From positions 1 through 37,906 of the forward strand of contig CALKDI010000151.1 in assembly GCA_938084065.1 (NCBI GenBank): a stretch of DNA of 37,906 nucleotides, read 5' to 3'. The DNA is from an uncultured Alphaproteobacteria bacterium (GTDB taxonomy: Bacteria > Pseudomonadota > Alphaproteobacteria > Bin95). This document shows positions 363-10,284 of the stretch, one piece after another (the first letter of the stretch is position 1; each line of letters starts with the position of its first letter). A program made the position numbers and the translations under genes. Under the pieces are notes generated by a model. That model did no database searches and had not been told where the DNA came from. It saw only the letters and a list, made by a program, of their open reading frames with translations.

Positions 363-1127
363 ATGACGATAGAACACCCCCATGTCGGATTGCTGGTCAC
401 ATGCTTGGTCGATGCTATGCGGCCAGAGATCGGCTTTGCGACGCTGAAACTGCTGGAGCAGGCCGGCTGCCGCGTCTCGGTGCCGGAGGTTCAGACCTGC
501 TGCGGCCAGCCTGCCCTGAACTCTGGCGCGAGAGATGAGGGGAAGACTCTGGCCAAGCGCCTGGTCGCAGCGTTTGAGCCATTCGATTATGTGGTTGCGC
601 CGTCAGGCTCCTGCCTTGGCACGGTCAAGACGCACTACCCGGAATTATTCGCCAACGAGCCAGAGTGGCGGATGCGGGCTGAGCGATTGGCGGAAAAATC
701 ATACGAGATTCTCTCCTTCCTGGCAGATTTGTGCCAATGGCAGCCGGAGGGCGTACGCTTCCCAGCCAAAGCCACCTACCACCACACCTGCGCTGGCCTG
801 CGAGAACTCGGCATCTATGCCCAGCCGCTGAAGCTGTTGGAACAAGTCGAAGGCCTTGAATTGGTTCCGCTGGAGGCTGAGAACGCGTGCTGCGGCTTCG
901 GCGGCACGTTTGCAGTGAAATACCCGGAGATTTCCACCGCCATTGTCTCTGACAAAACGCGCCAGATCGCGGCGACCGGCGCGGATACGCTGCTGGCCGC
1001 CGATCTCGGCTGCCTGATGAACATCGCCGGAAAGCTCTCCCGCGAGGGCCGGGGGGATATCCGTGTGTTTCATCCGGTCGAAGTCCTGGCTGGAATGGCC
1101 GACGGCAAGGGAGTGGCCGGCAAATGA
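363..1127 (+). CDS. lutA: L-lactate utilisation protein LutA (LldE), CCG-domain Fe-S protein
   Basis: LutA is one of three subunits (LutABC, also LldEFG) of the iron-sulfur L-lactate oxidation complex, which converts L-lactate to pyruvate in the cytoplasm. The 254-residue length is normal for the family. Two cysteine-rich CCG repeats are visible: Cys14 with Cys46-Cys47-Gly48 (TCCGQPALNSG), and Cys143 (HHTCAGL) with Cys176-Cys177-Gly178 (CCGFGGTFAVKYPEIS). These are the hallmark of the heterodisulfide-reductase-like cluster-binding domain. The ATG at 363 gives the expected N-terminus, with a weak ribosome site. The stop overlaps the lutB start as ATGA, indicating translational coupling. A glycolate oxidase GlcF-type protein is the main alternative, but the following lutB and lutC make LutA much more likely. 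Confidence 0.93.
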   Translation: MTIEHPHVGLLVTCLVDAMRPEIGFATLKLLEQAGCRVSVPEVQTCCGQPALNSGARDEGKTLAKRLVAAFEPFDYVVAPSGSCLGTVKTHYPELFANEPEWRMRAERLAEKSYEILSFLADLCQWQPEGVRFPAKATYHHTCAGLRELGIYAQPLKLLEQVEGLELVPLEAENACCGFGGTFAVKYPEISTAIVSDKTRQIAATGADTLLAADLGCLMNIAGKLSREGRGDIRVFHPVEVLAGMADGKGVAGK

Positions 1128-2548
1128 GCACCGCGCTCCGCTCTCCAGCCAATTTCAAGCGTGACGCGGCTGAGGCTGTCACCAAGCCCTCGCTGAAGAT
1201 CGCGCTCGATCGCACCACCGGCCTGCTCCAGAGCCGCCGCGTCGACGTGCTTAAGGCCTATCCCGAGTTCGAAGTAACCCGGGACGTTGGCGCTCGCATC
1301 AAGGACCACACGCTCGCCCACCTTGATCACTACTTGGCCGAGTTCGAGAAGAACGCCACCGCCGCCGGTGCGGTCGTGCACTGGGCGGAAACGCCGGAAG
1401 AGGCCTGCAAGATCGTCATCGACCTCTGCCGCCAGGCCGACGCCAAGTCGGTAACGCGGGTCAAGTCCATGCTGGGGGAGGAGATCGGCCTGCCCGGCGC
1501 TCTCGCTGCTGCCGGCATTGAGCGGGTCGAGACCGATCTGGCCGAACACATCATCCAACTAGCCGACGAGCCGCCCTCGCACATCGTCATCCCGGCCATG
1601 CACAAAACGCGAGAGGAAGTCGCCGACCTCTTCGCCGAGCACCATCGTGAGCCGAAGATCGATGGTGAAGTTGGCACACTGGTGGAGAGTGCCCGCGGAG
1701 AACTCCGGCCGAAATACGTCGCCGCAGACGTTGGTATTTCCGGCGCGAACTTCTTGATTGCCTCAACCGGCAGCATCTGCACCGTCACGAACGAGGGCAA
1801 TGCGGAGCTGACCACCGAACTGCCGCGCATGCACATCGTCACCGCTGGCATCGAGAAAATCGTGCCGGAGCCAGAGCATGCATTGGTGTTGCTGCGCCTC
1901 CTGGCTCGGTCTGCTTTGGGCACGGAGTTTACGCAGTACACCAGCTTCTTCACTGGCCCCCGCCGGGCTGACGAGACCGTCGGACCGGAGTCCATGCACA
2001 TCGTGTTGGTGGATAACGGCCGCACGCAAATGCTGGCGACCGAGATGCGCCCGATGCTGCGTTGCATCCGCTGTGCTGCCTGCATCAACCATTGTCCAGT
2101 CTATGGCGCAATCGGCGGCCACCCCTATGGCGCAACCTATCCGGGGCCGATGGGCAGCGTACTGACGCCAGCGCTGCTGTCGCTGGAGGTGGCCAAGGAC
2201 CTGCCGCACGCCTGCACGTTGAATGGCCGCTGCCAGGAGGTCTGCCCGGTCAAAATCCCACTGCCGGACCTGATCCGCTCGCTGCGGGACGACACATGGC
2301 GGCGCAAGTTAGTGCCGAAGCCGGCGCGGCTGGCGGTGCAAGGTTGGGCTTGGGTGGCGGCGAGGCCGACGCTCTACCGCTTGACTTCTGGGATGGCGAA
2401 CCGGGCGCTGCGGCTTTGGTCACGAGGGCGCCCGATGATTGCGAAGCTGCCGCTGGCCGGCGGCTGGACTCAAGGGCGGGACTTCCCAGCCCCGACCGGC
2501 CCAACCTTCATGCAGCAATACAAAGCGCAGCAGAGGGCCAAGCGATGA
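1124..2548 (+). CDS. lutB: L-lactate utilisation protein LutB, LUD domain plus two [4Fe-4S] sites
   Basis: LutB is the large iron-sulfur subunit of the LutABC L-lactate oxidation system. The 474-residue protein has an N-terminal LUD (DUF162) domain over roughly residues 70-300. A ferredoxin-like segment follows, with two classic cysteine sets: Cys314, Cys317, Cys320, Cys324-Pro, and Cys364, Cys370, Cys374-Pro (NGRCQEVCPVKIP). Beyond about residue 395 is the basic C-terminal tail usual for LutB. It starts with ATG inside the lutA stop (ATGA) and ends with the same overlap into lutC, so the three subunits are translationally coupled. No residue expected for cluster binding is missing. The identification is secure from motifs and gene order. 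Confidence 0.95.
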   Translation: MSTALRSPANFKRDAAEAVTKPSLKIALDRTTGLLQSRRVDVLKAYPEFEVTRDVGARIKDHTLAHLDHYLAEFEKNATAAGAVVHWAETPEEACKIVIDLCRQADAKSVTRVKSMLGEEIGLPGALAAAGIERVETDLAEHIIQLADEPPSHIVIPAMHKTREEVADLFAEHHREPKIDGEVGTLVESARGELRPKYVAADVGISGANFLIASTGSICTVTNEGNAELTTELPRMHIVTAGIEKIVPEPEHALVLLRLLARSALGTEFTQYTSFFTGPRRADETVGPESMHIVLVDNGRTQMLATEMRPMLRCIRCAACINHCPVYGAIGGHPYGATYPGPMGSVLTPALLSLEVAKDLPHACTLNGRCQEVCPVKIPLPDLIRSLRDDTWRRKLVPKPARLAVQGWAWVAARPTLYRLTSGMANRALRLWSRGRPMIAKLPLAGGWTQGRDFPAPTGPTFMQQYKAQQRAKR

Positions 2549-3183
2549 GTAATGCCCGCAGCAAGATATTCGCCCGCATTGCGGAGGCTCGGGGCGAACC
2601 CTTGCCCTCTGCGCAAGCCATCGCCGCCGAGCGCGCCGCTCTGGTGCCTGATGCCAGCGCCACGCAGCCGACGTTTACCGAGCAAGACACCCTCACCCGC
2701 TTTGAAGCCATGGCAACGTCCGAGCGGTTGACCGCGACGGTCGCTCATATCGCGACATTGGAGGATGTGCCGGGAGCCGTCGCAGCCTATCTGGCAGAGA
2801 AAGGCTTGCCCGCAGAGGCCGCCATCGCGCCGGTGCTCGCGGGATTGGACTGGAGCGGTATCGCCGCCTCCGCCGCCATCACGCCTAACCAGCCAGTAGC
2901 CGTGACCTTGGCAGAGGGCGGGGTTGCCGAGACCGGCAGCCTGATCTTCCGCTCCGGCCCAGACACGCCGATGCTGCACAATTTCCTGGGCCTACATCAT
3001 GTGGCTGTGGTGCGTAAAGACGGCATCAGCCGCTATCTGGAAAGCGTCTTCGCGCCGGATGCTCCAGAATTGCCCCGCATCATGAGCCTGGTCACCGGCA
3101 CCAGCGGCACGGCTGACATCGAAGCCGTCAATATCCGGGGAGCGCACGGGCCGCGGTATCTACATATTTTGATGGTGGGATAG
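2545..3183 (+). CDS. lutC: L-lactate utilisation protein LutC, LUD-domain subunit
   Basis: LutC is the third subunit of the lactate oxidation system and is essentially a single LUD (DUF162) domain. The ATG at 2545 overlaps the lutB TGA (ATGA), which fixes the start and gives 212 residues, usual for LutC; the open frame continues further upstream but only as a shadow of lutB. Family features include SNARSKIFARI at the N-terminus, the glycine-rich LAEGGVAETGSLIF segment in the middle, and the SGTADIEAVNIRGAHGPRYLHIL segment near the C-terminus, which is strongly conserved in LutC/LldG proteins. There are no Fe-S cysteine motifs, as expected. It is last in the lut unit, and only 19 bp separate it from the GIY-YIG gene downstream. 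Confidence 0.93.
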   Translation: MSNARSKIFARIAEARGEPLPSAQAIAAERAALVPDASATQPTFTEQDTLTRFEAMATSERLTATVAHIATLEDVPGAVAAYLAEKGLPAEAAIAPVLAGLDWSGIAASAAITPNQPVAVTLAEGGVAETGSLIFRSGPDTPMLHNFLGLHHVAVVRKDGISRYLESVFAPDAPELPRIMSLVTGTSGTADIEAVNIRGAHGPRYLHILMVG

Positions 3184-3202
3184 ACCATCTGAAGGCTGTG
3201 CG

Positions 3203-4030
3203 ATGGCATCTCTTCAGTTCAATTGTCTACTCGGCCTCGAAGGAATTGATCCAGCGAAGGTGATTGTACTTCGGCATCGCCCTAAAGAAAAAAAGCTGCG
3301 CCGTGTGCTGCCTTGGCTGGCAGCTGAGCAGCCCAATCTATTCAACGCCTATCAACAGGTGCAGGGACCGAAGCTTGAGAAAGCATTTCTGTCGATCGAT
3401 TTTATTGCAGCATTCATAGGCTATGCGTCGGGCCGCGCTGTCTTTGTTGGGCTTTTCAGACGAAAAGGTCAGGAATTGGTCACGCGGAACACATTCCTCC
3501 AAAAGCCCGCGGTCAAGCGTCTGACGGAAATGGGTATGGCTGATGCCGATATTCGAGATACCCGATATTGGTTCGATCTAGAGCGAACTGACCTGCTGAG
3601 AGATTACATTGGTCGCCTGGTCATAAATTGGCCGGGAGGCGAACTTTCCTGGTGGCGACGGTCGGAGCGCAATCATCTTCAGGTGTTAGCGATTTCTGAG
3701 CACGATACACTCACAACCGACGTGCCTTTGTGGAACGAGCTTGTTCTGAATTGGACCGAATTGCAACACCTGCCTATGTCTTGGAAACTCACTCTCGGAC
3801 AATGGCGAGCGATCTACCATGTTTTTGATACGCATAGCCGCCGCGGCTACGTTGGTTCTGCATATGGTGAACAGAACTTGCTGCAACGATGGCAGGAGTA
3901 TGCTGCAAGTAGCCATGGCGGTAATGTTGGGTTACAGGGGCTTGATGCCCGCAATTTTCGCTTCTCAATCCTGCAATTACTAGCACCCGATCTGGACGCA
4001 ACCGATGTAATCGTGCTGGAGAACACCTAG
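3203..4030 (+). CDS. GIY-YIG nuclease family protein, cut short by an in-frame TAG
   Basis: The first 200 residues form a domain seen in a family of orphan GIY-YIG proteins (VIVLRHRPKEKKLRRVLPWL near residue 20, LFNAYQQ near 50, FVGLFRRKG near 80, GRLVINWP near 137). The C-terminal nuclease domain runs from Ile204-Tyr205 (AIYHVFD, the GIY position) through Gly215-Tyr-Val-Gly218 (the YIG position) to an Arg-containing helix (LLQRWQEYAASSHGGN). In the family as I recall it, the protein should continue past LEN(T)W into a conserved LHTR-x-FGLN tail. Here the Trp position is TAG at 4028-4030, and the matching tail follows in the same frame to 4075. The ATG at 3203 has AAGG seven bases upstream. 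Base composition is visibly lower in GC than the neighbours. The biological role is unknown; a DNA nuclease, perhaps restriction-like, is the inference. Confidence 0.8.
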   Translation: MASLQFNCLLGLEGIDPAKVIVLRHRPKEKKLRRVLPWLAAEQPNLFNAYQQVQGPKLEKAFLSIDFIAAFIGYASGRAVFVGLFRRKGQELVTRNTFLQKPAVKRLTEMGMADADIRDTRYWFDLERTDLLRDYIGRLVINWPGGELSWWRRSERNHLQVLAISEHDTLTTDVPLWNELVLNWTELQHLPMSWKLTLGQWRAIYHVFDTHSRRGYVGSAYGEQNLLQRWQEYAASSHGGNVGLQGLDARNFRFSILQLLAPDLDATDVIVLENT

Positions 4031-4075
4031 AAAAACCGCATGCACACCCGTGAATTCGGGCTAAACAAGAAATAA
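4031..4075 (+). other. In-frame continuation of the GIY-YIG gene after the TAG
   Basis: After the TAG at 4028-4030 the same frame reads KNRMHTREFGLNKK and then TAA at 4073-4075. HTREFGLN matches the conserved end of this GIY-YIG family, in which the tail supplies structural residues after the catalytic core. A single base change (TGG to TAG) would therefore explain the interruption. Whether the gene is a recent pseudogene, is read through, or carries a sequence error cannot be decided here. Confidence 0.75.
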
Positions 4076-4114: not shown

Positions 4115-4297
4115 GTGGTTGCAGCCCAACTCGAAGAGGACCTTCGCCAGCAACGACTGCCTGACATCGCGGCCCTGCGCGCGCTCATTGCACCGTCACC
4201 GGACAGCGTGCCCGCGATTGCAGTCCACCTGCCGGAGCTGTCGTCCTACAACCAGCTTCTGAACAATACGCTGATCACAGAGGGGGCTGTAGCATGA
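4115..4297 (+). pseudogene. IS21-family transposase IstA, C-terminal remnant
   Basis: Sixty codons with a recognisable IstA C-terminus: an acidic helix (QLEEDLRQQRLPDIAALRALIAPSP) followed by the VHLPELSSYNQLL segment that precedes the stop in one IS21 subgroup. Everything upstream, including the helix-turn-helix and DDE catalytic region, is absent; in this frame a stop sits immediately upstream at 4109-4111. The remnant begins about 35 bp after the end of the GIY-YIG frame. Its TGA overlaps the ATG of the istB fragment, preserving the native istAB coupling. It cannot make an active transposase. Confidence 0.7.
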
Positions 4298-4412: not shown

Positions 4413-4523
4413 TACCGGGTAACAGATTGAAGATTTTACCTATGTAACAACATGGCAAGGCATGGTTAATGTCGCTTTCATTACCGACGTCTTTGCCCGC
4501 AAGAGCGTCGGTTGGCGGGTCTC

Positions 4524-4550
4524 GACGTCCATGACGTCCATGACGTCCAT
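4524..4550 (+). repeat. Three tandem copies of a 9-bp unit (GACGTCCAT)
   Basis: Three exact copies at 4524-4532, 4533-4541 and 4542-4550 encode a repeated Thr-Ser-Met inside the IS3 transposase remnant, where intact relatives have a single S-S/T-M. Being in-frame it does not itself shift the frame. It looks like replication-slippage expansion in a gene no longer under selection. Confidence 0.9.
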
Positions 4551-4765
4551 GACAACCTTGTTCGTGCTGGACGCGCTGAACCAGGCGGTCTGCCAGCGAC
4601 GGCCACAGAAAGGTGGTGGACTGATCCATCATTCCGCCACATCATTCAGACCGCGGCTCCCAATATCTATCCGTTCGCTATACAGAGCGTTTGGTTGACG
4701 CTGGCATCGATCCATCGGTCGGCACTGTCGGCGACTCCTACGATAACGCCATGGCCGAGAGCATC

Positions 4766-5975: not shown

Positions 5976-7520
5976 CTATGCCGCCTCTTCAACGAAACGT
6001 GGGAACACGCCTTGAGGCTTAGGCAATGCGGTACCAGGTTGCAAAGCTCCGCATTTACCTGCACTTGCGAACGATCGGTTCTCCACAGGGACAGCCAACT
6101 GATCCAATATTTTATCGGATGTTTCTGGCATGAAAGGTAAAGTCGCCAAACCCAAATGCCGGATCGTCTCAGCCAGCACATAGAGCACGGTTCGCATCCG
6201 CGGCTCGTCGGTCTTTCGCAAGGCCCAAGGCGCCTGGTGATCCACATAGCCATTGGCGGCACGGATCACCACCCAGATGGCCTCGAGCGCCTCATGGAAG
6301 GCCTGGCGGTCCATCAATGGCCGCATGGTTTCGACGAGGCGTTCGGCCGGCTCTAACAAAGCCCTATCTTCATCTGTAAAGGCGCCGGGTTCTGGCACTG
6401 CTCCGCTGCAATTCTTGCTGACCATACTCAGGCTGCGCTGGACCAAATTGCCGTAATCATTGGCCAATTCATGGTTCATACGGCTAATCATCGAGGCATG
6501 AGCAAAATCCCCATCATTGCCGAACGGCACCTCGCGCAGAAGGAAGAACCGCACTTGGTCCAACCCGTATTGCTCAACCAAATCATCCGGTTTGATCACA
6601 TTGCCGAGGCTTTTGGAGATCTTCTGCCCCTCATTCGTCCACCAGCCGTGTGCGTAGACCCTGGTCGGCGGCGCGATGCCAGCAGCCATGAGGAAGGCTG
6701 GCCAGTACACGGCATGGAACCGGACAATGTCCTTACCGACCATGTGAAGGTTGCATGGCCAAAACGTTGTAAAATCGTCGGATTCCATATCTGGAAAACC
6801 AACCGCCGTCGCATAGTTAGTCAGCGCGTCCAACCAAACATACATAATGTGATCCGGATCGTTGGGCACCGGCACACCCCACTTAAAGGATGTACGGCTG
6901 ACGGAGAGATCTTGCAAACCGCCCTTCACAAAGCTCATCACCTCATTGCGGCGGCTGGCTGGGCCGATGCAATCTGGGTTGGCGTCGTAATATCCCAGCA
7001 ATCGGTCGCCCCAGGCTGAAAGGCGGAAGAAATAGCTCGGCTCCTCCACCCATTCAACTGGTGCACCTGTGGGAGCTAGCTTTTCGCCATTGGGTCCGTC
7101 GGTTAGCTCGCCAACCGTATAAAACGCTTCATCCCGAACTGCGTACCAGCCGGCATAGGCACCCAGATAGATATCGCCCGTTTCCACCAGTTTGGACCAC
7201 AGAGCCTGACAGGCTTTCGTGTGCCGTTCCTCTGTCGTGCGGATGAAGTCATCGTGGGAGAAGTTCATCTTCTCCGCCAGATCGCGGAAGTTTTGGCTCA
7301 CCCGATCAACAAACGTCTGCGGGTCAACTCCCGCGACCTCCGCAGCTTTCTCTACCTTCTGGCCGTGCTCGTCGGTACCAGTCAAGAAATGCACACGGTA
7401 GCCGTCCATTCGTTTGAAACGCGCGAGCACATCGCACGCCAACGTGGTGTAGGCGTGGCCGATATGGGGGGCATCGTTCACATAATAGATCGGCGTGGTG
7501 ATGTAGTATGGCTGTGCCAT
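5976..7520 (-). CDS. metG: Methionyl-tRNA synthetase
   Basis: This class I aminoacyl-tRNA synthetase charges tRNA-Met and is essential for translation. The Rossmann catalytic core begins with YYITTPIYYVNDAPHIGHAY, with the HIGH motif at residues 19-22; the KMSKS loop is KISKS at 300-304. The connective-peptide region (AYAGWYAVRDEAFYT) lacks the zinc-knuckle cysteines, placing it in the short type without a C-terminal dimerisation domain; 514 residues is typical. The anticodon-binding helical domain occupies roughly residues 350-500. The ATG at 7520 is preceded by GAGGG at good spacing. It lies 119 bp below the TPR gene and 7 bp above tatD, so it could have its own promoter in that gap. Confidence 0.97.
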   Translation of the reverse strand: MAQPYYITTPIYYVNDAPHIGHAYTTLACDVLARFKRMDGYRVHFLTGTDEHGQKVEKAAEVAGVDPQTFVDRVSQNFRDLAEKMNFSHDDFIRTTEERHTKACQALWSKLVETGDIYLGAYAGWYAVRDEAFYTVGELTDGPNGEKLAPTGAPVEWVEEPSYFFRLSAWGDRLLGYYDANPDCIGPASRRNEVMSFVKGGLQDLSVSRTSFKWGVPVPNDPDHIMYVWLDALTNYATAVGFPDMESDDFTTFWPCNLHMVGKDIVRFHAVYWPAFLMAAGIAPPTRVYAHGWWTNEGQKISKSLGNVIKPDDLVEQYGLDQVRFFLLREVPFGNDGDFAHASMISRMNHELANDYGNLVQRSLSMVSKNCSGAVPEPGAFTDEDRALLEPAERLVETMRPLMDRQAFHEALEAIWVVIRAANGYVDHQAPWALRKTDEPRMRTVLYVLAETIRHLGLATLPFMPETSDKILDQLAVPVENRSFASAGKCGALQPGTALPKPQGVFPRFVEEAA

Positions 7521-7639: not shown

Positions 7640-8923
7640 TCAGGCGACAGCCATTCCCGCAACCGGCGGGTTCGCCGACTGCACAGGTCGCCGAAGGGCT
7701 AACAACCGTCGTGCCTCGTCGCTGCGCCCAAGTTTGAGCATGACGGCCAGCATTGAATGGTCCAGCAGGTCGCGCTGCGCCCGGCTGCCGCCGATGCGAG
7801 CATGGTCGGCCATGGCTGCGGCCAGATGATCTGCAGCGCCACTCCAATCCTCGGCAGCAATCGCCTGAAAAGCTGCTGCAGCCTCCTTCACAACGTCACC
7901 GGCGGGGCCGGCCGGATTGGCAATGATCCTGGACAGAGCGTCAGTCTCGCCAGTCATCGCATAGGCAAGTGCCGCATGGACGTCGGCAAAAGCGACGCCA
8001 CAATTGGGGAAATGTTTGTGGGCGTAGTCGCTGACCACCTTCCAACGCTCTACCGGCACAGGCACGCCGGCCAATTCCGCCCGATAGAGGATCGCGGCAT
8101 AGTCGGTCAGCACGATCAAGGGAAATGCTTGCGACGCGCTCGGCCGGATGTACTGGTCGACAAGTGACCAGACCCCATCGATATCGCCCTGGCCAAGCTT
8201 CCATAGCGCCAAATGCCAGGATAGATGGCTGTGCATGAGGCCGGCCTGGTCATAGTCCGGCAGCCATCCTTCCAGGAAAGACATCCCGGCAGCCGGCTCC
8301 CCAGCCTCGTAATAGACGTGCGCGCGGACATGAGCGCCGTGGGCGTTGCGTGGGTTCACGACGAGTGCCCGGTCAATCATTTCGTCGGCGCGGTCTAACT
8401 GGCCGGTTTCACAGAACGAAAACGCGTGTTGGCTGAGAAACCACCAGTCGTCGCCATAATGCGGCGCCAAGCTGGTTGTGTAGGCGAGCAATTCCGCTTC
8501 ACGCCCCGGACGGCCGGAAAACCCGATCAGGCCGAACACGCTGGTGCAGGTCTGTGCGACGAGCACGTCACGGGGATGCTCGGCCACATGTTGGCGGATC
8601 GCTGGATAGGCTGCAGCGCCATTGCCATCGATCAAAAGGCCCAGGGCGTTGATGTGCGCTGCGTCTTTCGCGCTCAAACCTTCCGTCAGGGACCGTGCCG
8701 TCGCCATAGCAGCTTTGGCGGCGGTCGGATCTCCCTTAATCTGACAGGCACGGGCTAAGCTACTATGGCCAAGGGCAAAGTTCGGATCCGATGCGGTGAC
8801 AGCCTCGAACGCCTCGCGCGTGTCCGGCGCGGCGCCTAGCAGTTTATCAACCGCGTCAACATAGAGGTCGCGCGTTTCAGTAGACCTTGTCGCCAATTCA
8901 TTGCCGTAGCGATCTGTCAGCAT
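7640..8923 (-). CDS. Tetratricopeptide-repeat protein, TTC38-like family
   Basis: A soluble helical-repeat protein of about 427 residues, with no signal peptide or transmembrane segment. TPR-like helix pairs run through most of it (for example FEAVTASDPNFALGHSSLAR, the FSFCETGQLDRADEMIDRAL region and HVRAHVYYEAGEPAAG). The WFLSQHAFSF and HSHLSWHLALW segments are characteristic of proteins related to eukaryotic TTC38. Function is unknown; repeats of this kind usually mediate protein binding. I chose the ATG at 8923 (MLTDRYGNEL) over the upstream TTG at 8938, because relatives begin at this methionine and GAGG lies upstream. It sits between dihydroorotase (23 bp) and metG in one orientation. 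Another, differently built TPR protein lies at 14447-16087. Confidence 0.8.
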   Translation of the reverse strand: MLTDRYGNELATRSTETRDLYVDAVDKLLGAAPDTREAFEAVTASDPNFALGHSSLARACQIKGDPTAAKAAMATARSLTEGLSAKDAAHINALGLLIDGNGAAAYPAIRQHVAEHPRDVLVAQTCTSVFGLIGFSGRPGREAELLAYTTSLAPHYGDDWWFLSQHAFSFCETGQLDRADEMIDRALVVNPRNAHGAHVRAHVYYEAGEPAAGMSFLEGWLPDYDQAGLMHSHLSWHLALWKLGQGDIDGVWSLVDQYIRPSASQAFPLIVLTDYAAILYRAELAGVPVPVERWKVVSDYAHKHFPNCGVAFADVHAALAYAMTGETDALSRIIANPAGPAGDVVKEAAAAFQAIAAEDWSGAADHLAAAMADHARIGGSRAQRDLLDHSMLAVMLKLGRSDEARRLLALRRPVQSANPPVAGMAVA

Positions 8924-8946
8924 CTGCCTGATCCTCAAATTGTTAT

Positions 8947-10284
8947 CTAGTCGGTTGTGCGCTCCAGTGTATCATGGAAGCGCATTGGCTCACCAATCGC
9001 TGTGCCCAACACCTCACCATCGCGCATGACATGGTGTCCACGGATGATAGTGCCGACCGGCCAGCCCTTGCACTTATGGCCGGTATAGGGCGACCACCCT
9101 GCCCGGCTGGCGAGCCAATCCTGCTCAATCACACGTTCGGCCATCAGGTCAACCACGGTGAAGTCCGCGTCATAACCGATTGCGATACGGCCTTTATTCG
9201 CAATGCCAAATACCCGGTTTGGCCCGTGCGCCATCAGATCGACAAGCCGTTGCAGGGTCAACCGTCCTTCCGCGACATGGGTCAGCATCAAGGGCAATGT
9301 TGTTTGCACACCTGGCATTCCGGATGGGCTGCCGGGGTAGGCCTTGGCCTTTTCCTCTGCCGTATGCGGCGCGTGATCGGACCCCAAAATATCCACGGTT
9401 CCGTCGGCCACCGCCTGCCAGATTCTAGCCTGATGCGTTGCATCCCGAACCGGTGGGTTCATCTGAGCGTTTGTGCCAAGGCGGTCATAGCAATCCGGTG
9501 CTGTCAGGGTTAGGTGATTGGGGGTGACCTCGACCGTGGCGATATCCTTATGGTCGACGAGGTAGTCCATCTCGTCACCAGTCGAGATATGTAGCACATG
9601 AATGCGCCGGCCACTTTTTCGGGCGAGTTCAACGATTTGCCGCGTTGCGTTGAGAGCAGTTGTCGGGTCACGCCAGTCAGGGTGAGCTCGCGGATGACCG
9701 GCGGATTGCGCAATCGGATTGCGCTCCCGCAGCCGTGCTTCATCTTCCGCATGCACAGCAACGCGACGGTGGCCGTTCCGCAATACGCCAGCGATGGCGC
9801 CCGGTTCTTCGACCAGAAGCGACCCCGTGGACGATCCCATGAACAGCTTCACGCCACAAGCGCCTGGGAGGCGTTCCAACGATGGCAGTGCTGTGATGTT
9901 GTCCGGTGTCGCGCCGACGTAGAACGCGTGCTCGCACCACATCCGGCCTTTGGCTCGGTCGAGTTTGTCTTTCAGAGCTTCCGGGGTGCTGGTCGAAGGG
10001 TTGGTATTTGGCATCTCAAAGACGCCAGTAATCCCGCCCAAAACCGCAGCTTTTGAACCGGTTGCAAGGTCTTCCTTATGTTCACCACCAGGTTCCCGGA
10101 AGTGCACCTGCGTGTCGATCATGCCAGGGAGTATCGTCAGGCCTGTCGCATCGAGTTCGGTGGCGCCCTGCCCGGCTGGGATAGGTCCCAACTTGGCGAT
10201 TTTTCCACTGCGCACACCTATATCACAAGGCAACAACCCGGCGGGCAGCATGACTTGGCCACCGCGAATCACGAGATCGTACAT
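8947..10284 (-). CDS. pyrC: Dihydroorotase-family amidohydrolase (class I type)
   Basis: Dihydroorotase cyclises carbamoyl aspartate to dihydroorotate in pyrimidine synthesis. The 445-residue protein has the cyclic amidohydrolase layout: an N-terminal beta-sandwich part (MYDLVIRGG), the metal segment DTQVHFREPGGEHKEDLATG, the Lys of GVKLFMGSSTG, His in VAVHAEDE and IHVLHIST, and the catalytic Asp in DILGSDHAPHT. The first His of the usual H-x-H pair is Gln59 (Q-V-H61). I recall this as a feature of an alphaproteobacterial subgroup, but it leaves some doubt about metal binding. The ATG at 10284 follows GAGAG. It is 24 bp below coaD in the gyrA run. An allantoinase or hydantoinase relative is the alternative. 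Confidence 0.85.
   Translation of the reverse strand: MYDLVIRGGQVMLPAGLLPCDIGVRSGKIAKLGPIPAGQGATELDATGLTILPGMIDTQVHFREPGGEHKEDLATGSKAAVLGGITGVFEMPNTNPSTSTPEALKDKLDRAKGRMWCEHAFYVGATPDNITALPSLERLPGACGVKLFMGSSTGSLLVEEPGAIAGVLRNGHRRVAVHAEDEARLRERNPIAQSAGHPRAHPDWRDPTTALNATRQIVELARKSGRRIHVLHISTGDEMDYLVDHKDIATVEVTPNHLTLTAPDCYDRLGTNAQMNPPVRDATHQARIWQAVADGTVDILGSDHAPHTAEEKAKAYPGSPSGMPGVQTTLPLMLTHVAEGRLTLQRLVDLMAHGPNRVFGIANKGRIAIGYDADFTVVDLMAERVIEQDWLASRAGWSPYTGHKCKGWPVGTIIRGHHVMRDGEVLGTAIGEPMRFHDTLERTTD

Follow-up and report, generated by a model that had tools for sequence, protein, structure and literature searches.

Uzume is an anti-phage system that is assigned by PADLOC to a single gene, uzuA, and reviews citing Millman et al. 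2022 place it among the systems of unknown mechanism (PMC12926258; PMC10482375); no phage assay for the UzuA clade studied here was found in the literature searched. The GIY-YIG superfamily is recognized by its fold together with an active site of Tyr, Tyr, Arg, His/Tyr, Glu, and Asn, as in the homing enzyme I-TevI, whose nuclease domain is N-terminal. In R.Eco29kI, mutation of the equivalent Asn left about 10% of the activity and weakened DNA binding (PMC1952068). Two further precedents concern the coupling of such nucleases to sensors: CMoRE (PD-T4-3), a 5hmC-dependent GIY-YIG restriction enzyme (PMC12923530), and the type IV enzymes in which PUA-superfamily sensors are fused to nucleases (PMC7897488; PMC7641849).

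Here, we describe a uzuA gene from an uncultured alphaproteobacterium, located in a contig of 37,906 nucleotides (the window, i.e., the whole stretch of DNA that was analyzed). The initial annotation had noted a GIY-YIG gene interrupted by an amber codon and offered two readings, a recently inactivated restriction- or defense-like nuclease and amber readthrough. The end-to-end match to UzuA, the loss of the conserved catalytic tail, and the presence of a single stop favored the first of these. We think it likely that this uzuA copy, situated after lutABC and beside insertion sequence (IS) debris, was acquired by horizontal transfer and has recently become inactive as a defense nuclease. The features of the locus are listed in Table 1.

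Table 1. Coordinates of the uzuA gene, its parts, and its immediate surroundings (positions refer to the window)
Feature	Coordinates	Strand	Evidence
lutA (363-1127), lutB (1124-2548), and lutC (2545-3183), intact, upstream of uzuA	363..3183	+	Pfam CCG, LUD_dom, LutB_C
Gap between lutC and uzuA, 19 bp, with GAAGG at 3191-3195 as a plausible ribosome-binding site	3184..3202	+	Sequence
uzuA, truncated ORF, 275 aa, stop TAG	3203..4030	+	PADLOC UzuA PDLC03973, E 5.1e-66 for the truncated product
N-terminal domain (residues 1-190), a putative sensor that weakly matches PUA/ASCH-like folds	3203..3772	+	AF2 pLDDT 93; Foldseek PDB
GIY-YIG nuclease domain of the read-through frame, residues about 202-290	3806..4072	+	1ln0 profile match, E 8.7e-6; Pfam PF01541; Foldseek to I-TevI
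In-frame amber codon, residue 276; Trp/Tyr/Phe column in all relatives	4028..4030	+	Residues in 91 aligned relatives: W 77, Y 12, F 2
Untranslated in-frame tail KNRMHTREFGLNKK + TAA; carries N288; last residue Lys, Asn in relatives	4031..4075	+	
Frameshifted IS transposase remnant, rve integrase core	4441..4692	+	Pfam rve, E 1.5e-6

The uzuA frame starts at an ATG and, as initially described, is interrupted by the TAG and then resumes for 14 more open codons to a TAA at 4073-4075; it is otherwise open, with this one stop codon as its lesion. When the tail was included, the Pfam GIY-YIG match improved from E 0.0079 to 1.7e-4 (16.9 to 22.2 bits with TAG read as Trp), and the PADLOC UzuA score rose from 221 bits for the truncated product to 250 bits. 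The tail is therefore real homologous sequence and not a chance open frame. The tail motif that the initial annotation had given for this family (Trp, then LHTR and FGLN) proved correct. The TAG column was read from an alignment of 92 sequences drawn from species genomes, plasmids, IMG/VR, and same-class genomes (L079 excluded). In the other 91 relatives, this column held Trp 77 times, Tyr 12 times, and Phe twice; there was no stop among them, and none of these homologues ended naturally at the position. In L079, a Solibacter MAG, uzuA carries a frameshift near 7744, right after the catalytic Glu and in the same region as the stop studied here.

The read-through product matched the PADLOC UzuA profile PDLC03973 with an E value of 1e-74 over residues 4-289 of 290 and profile positions 3-277 of 278, whereas Pfam and NCBIfam returned only weak GIY-YIG matches. 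All 59 of 59 aligned members hit the same pair of UzuA models and, at E 1e-5, none of the remaining PADLOC families, membership being defined here by a profile built by others. The gene thus resembles uzuA of Uzume from end to end, as a single gene with a C-terminal GIY-YIG domain, but it lacks 15 residues, has AIY in place of GIY, and finishes in Lys. Its nuclease domain is incomplete at the C-terminal end, where the TAG at residue 276 cuts off the tail together with N288. We, therefore, class the studied copy, on the basis of its sequence, as a further, broken member of the already known UzuA family.

The nuclease fold was established for the read-through frame. The AlphaFold model was confident (pLDDT 94), and its C-terminal domain matched I-TevI in Foldseek. 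Y205, Y216, R229, Y233, E273, and N288 aligned with I-TevI Y6, Y17, R27, H31, E75, and N90, so that the fold and all six active-site positions have counterparts, and so does the Trp at the TAG column, W276 corresponding to W78 in the profile alignment (1ln0, E 8.7e-6; the I-TevI chain used is a mutant at R27). The UzuA copy differs from I-TevI in having Tyr for H31; the Gly of the GIY motif is Ala, and N288 lies only beyond the stop. In the truncated product, the Glu is kept while the Asn and part of helix 266-279 are lost. From these losses and the behavior of the R.Eco29kI Asn mutant, we infer that truncated UzuA should be inactive or nearly so, although some residual activity after the loss of 15 residues is conceivable.

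It had been suspected that the N-terminus was a domain of the PUA/EVE/SRA type. This received weak support from structural matches to PUA/ASCH folds, but sequence searches of Pfam and the PDB gave nothing worth noting and no PUA/ASCH match. The AlphaFold model of the N-terminal domain alone was confident (pLDDT 93), and Foldseek searches of the PDB returned CMoRE (9u75) as the best match (E 0.019, probability 0.97, with low TM-scores of 0.34/0.28), followed by ZmASCH (5y6c), a member of the ASCH/PUA superfamily that went undetected by sequence (E 0.022, probability 0.82, TM-score 0.41 at best); other ASCH proteins scored lower. The matches to PUA-like folds were weak overall, with E values of 0.019-0.06 and TM-scores of 0.28-0.41. 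The part of CMoRE that was matched is not displayed in the Foldseek output; since the query did not contain the nuclease domain, the sensing domain of CMoRE is the likely partner. Like CMoRE, UzuA is a single-gene GIY-YIG defense enzyme with a putative separate sensing domain, but the domain order is reversed. Taken with the known fusions of PUA sensors to nucleases, the CMoRE and ASCH matches suggest, with moderate confidence, that intact UzuA is a modification-sensing, type IV-like nuclease, which we propose by analogy as its most likely way of working. The PUA/ASCH-like N-terminal domain would recognize invading DNA, possibly via a modified base, and the C-terminal GIY-YIG domain would then cut the recognized DNA.

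We also compared uzuA with its surroundings. As initially noted, the gene follows lutABC after a gap of only 19 bp and is lower in GC than its neighbors (50.9%, GC3 52%, versus 61-64.5%, GC3 73-79%, in lutA, lutB, and lutC). The reported IS mosaic downstream was confirmed for the rve fragment, but Pfam recognized nothing in a 60-aa fragment at 4115-4294. Within the integrase remnant, the 9-mer GACGTCCAT is present in three tandem copies (4524-4559). No convincing target-site duplications flanked the putative insertion. Among 13 other genomes of the same family, there were only two distant partial matches to uzuA. In the survey of homologue neighborhoods that the initial annotation had proposed, the neighbors of UzuA relatives varied, and some relatives lay near type I specificity subunits, Mrr, RAMA, or prophage genes. 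No neighbor family was common to the whole UzuA clade, the recurrent neighbors tracing to one Rhodobacterales syntenic block, and uzuA therefore stands alone, without a conserved partner, as is characteristic of Uzume. This block (L081, L083, L087, L092, L140-L142, and L146) derives partly from viral contigs and has phage genes among the scanned neighbors. On an Ensifer adhaerens plasmid (L054, 7857-10162), a second GIY-YIG protein is encoded about 0.7 kb downstream of UzuA. In the window itself, the only other matches to defense profiles were QatD (TatD-like) and a dCTPase, both of which are probably housekeeping proteins. The varied neighbors and the rarity in family genomes fit a mobile, stand-alone defense gene, and we envisage that the uzuA copy was gained by horizontal transfer and inserted downstream of lutABC next to the IS debris. 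A nonsense mutation at residue 276 would then have removed the tail, catalytic Asn included, along with part of the last helix, probably leaving a recently dead defense gene.

The stop could instead be a single wrong base in the draft, the gene being intact in the organism, and the assembly of 399 contigs and the otherwise open frame with its one lesion are compatible with a sequencing or assembly error. We regard this as unlikely, because the gene is odd apart from the TAG base. In a leave-one-out count with 52 close relatives, the studied protein departed from 8 of the 65 columns conserved at ≥90% (tied for the most; median 2) and from 6 of the 47 conserved at 95%, where it was alone at the top (median 1). 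The departures included G203A in the GIY motif and were spread over the gene, with residues 70, 85, and 135 in the N-terminal domain among them, and the final residue, Asn in 89 of the 92 rows, was Lys. Other UzuA relatives are also damaged, some of them on finished plasmids, which likewise speaks against an error.

The tree tip of the studied copy was 0.84 changes per column long, compared with 0.34 for the median end branch; it was the second longest in the 53-row group. A simulation of neutral change yielded about 1 stop at 0.03 substitutions per site and about 4 at 0.12, and a single stop fits roughly 0.005-0.08 neutral substitutions per site. Wholly neutral divergence should have produced several stops, yet only one is present, so most of the divergence probably arose while selection still acted on the gene, with little neutral change since its inactivation; the stop would accordingly be recent, or else a draft error.

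At least six other UzuA copies were broken, at varying places: by nonsense codons early in L007 and L057 and midway in L068, and by frameshifts near the C-terminus in L079, L146, and the Rhizobium copies L055/L056. The search was anchored on the catalytic domain and hence biased toward copies broken elsewhere than mid-domain. In L055 and L056, on two Rhizobium plasmids (7998-9476), an apparent one-base deletion shifts the frame before the catalytic Glu and joins UzuA in frame with a second GIY-YIG protein encoded downstream. L068, a betaproteobacterial MAG, has TAG at 7433-7435 and 7454-7456, both in Trp columns; a recoded contig was rejected, as the neighboring genes are intact under the standard code. 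The late truncations around the catalytic Glu/Asn (the studied copy, L079, L055/L056, and L146) might have been selected, with the toxic nuclease switched off and the sensor kept, or with a rare full-length product made by recoding, but we give this little credence.

The second of the initial readings, amber readthrough, would make the stop an attenuator of a toxic nuclease, with a few percent of ribosomes yielding the full protein. Downstream of the stop, the frame stays open and homologous throughout, and other copies (L057, L068) often have TAG in a Trp column as their nonsense codon; in the alignment, this holds for four of the five interior nonsense codons when the studied copy is counted. 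Ordinary mutation is enough to explain this, since 19 of the 42 routes by which a sense codon of this frame can become a stop through one transition lead to TAG (10 from Trp and 9 from Gln). A Dcm-type hotspot was dropped as a cause, because the studied stop lies within CCTAG and the L057 and L068 stops lie outside such a context. The stop position was shared by none of the 91 aligned relatives, and the read-through product would still finish in Lys, not Asn. TAG was also the commonest stop in the window, ending 14 of the 27 supported genes (gyrA, nrdB, and metG among them), and RF1 was present above the profile cut-off; genome-wide reassignment of TAG was rejected on these grounds. No tRNA-CUA was found by pattern search or ARAGORN; none of the nine pattern matches was a suppressor tRNA, two being tRNA-Glu matched outside the anticodon, but the pattern is a weak test, as a control pattern for the Trp anticodon gave mostly background. 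The readthrough reading is, therefore, very improbable. Least plausible of all is that tail-less UzuA was retained to act as a decoy or to regulate by binding DNA: the N-terminal domain is complete and L079, L055/L056, and L146 are also broken near the C-terminus, but the anchored search biases the break sites, L007, L057, and L068 break elsewhere, and the departures from conserved columns are gene-wide.

A recently inactivated, horizontally acquired uzuA could be missed or misnamed by annotation, as its truncated product falls below the Pfam GIY-YIG cut-off. The locus illustrates the gain and loss of a single-gene defense system. As a by-product, it offers a testable idea for Uzume, namely, that a PUA/ASCH-like sensor may be joined to a GIY-YIG nuclease in the reverse order to CMoRE.
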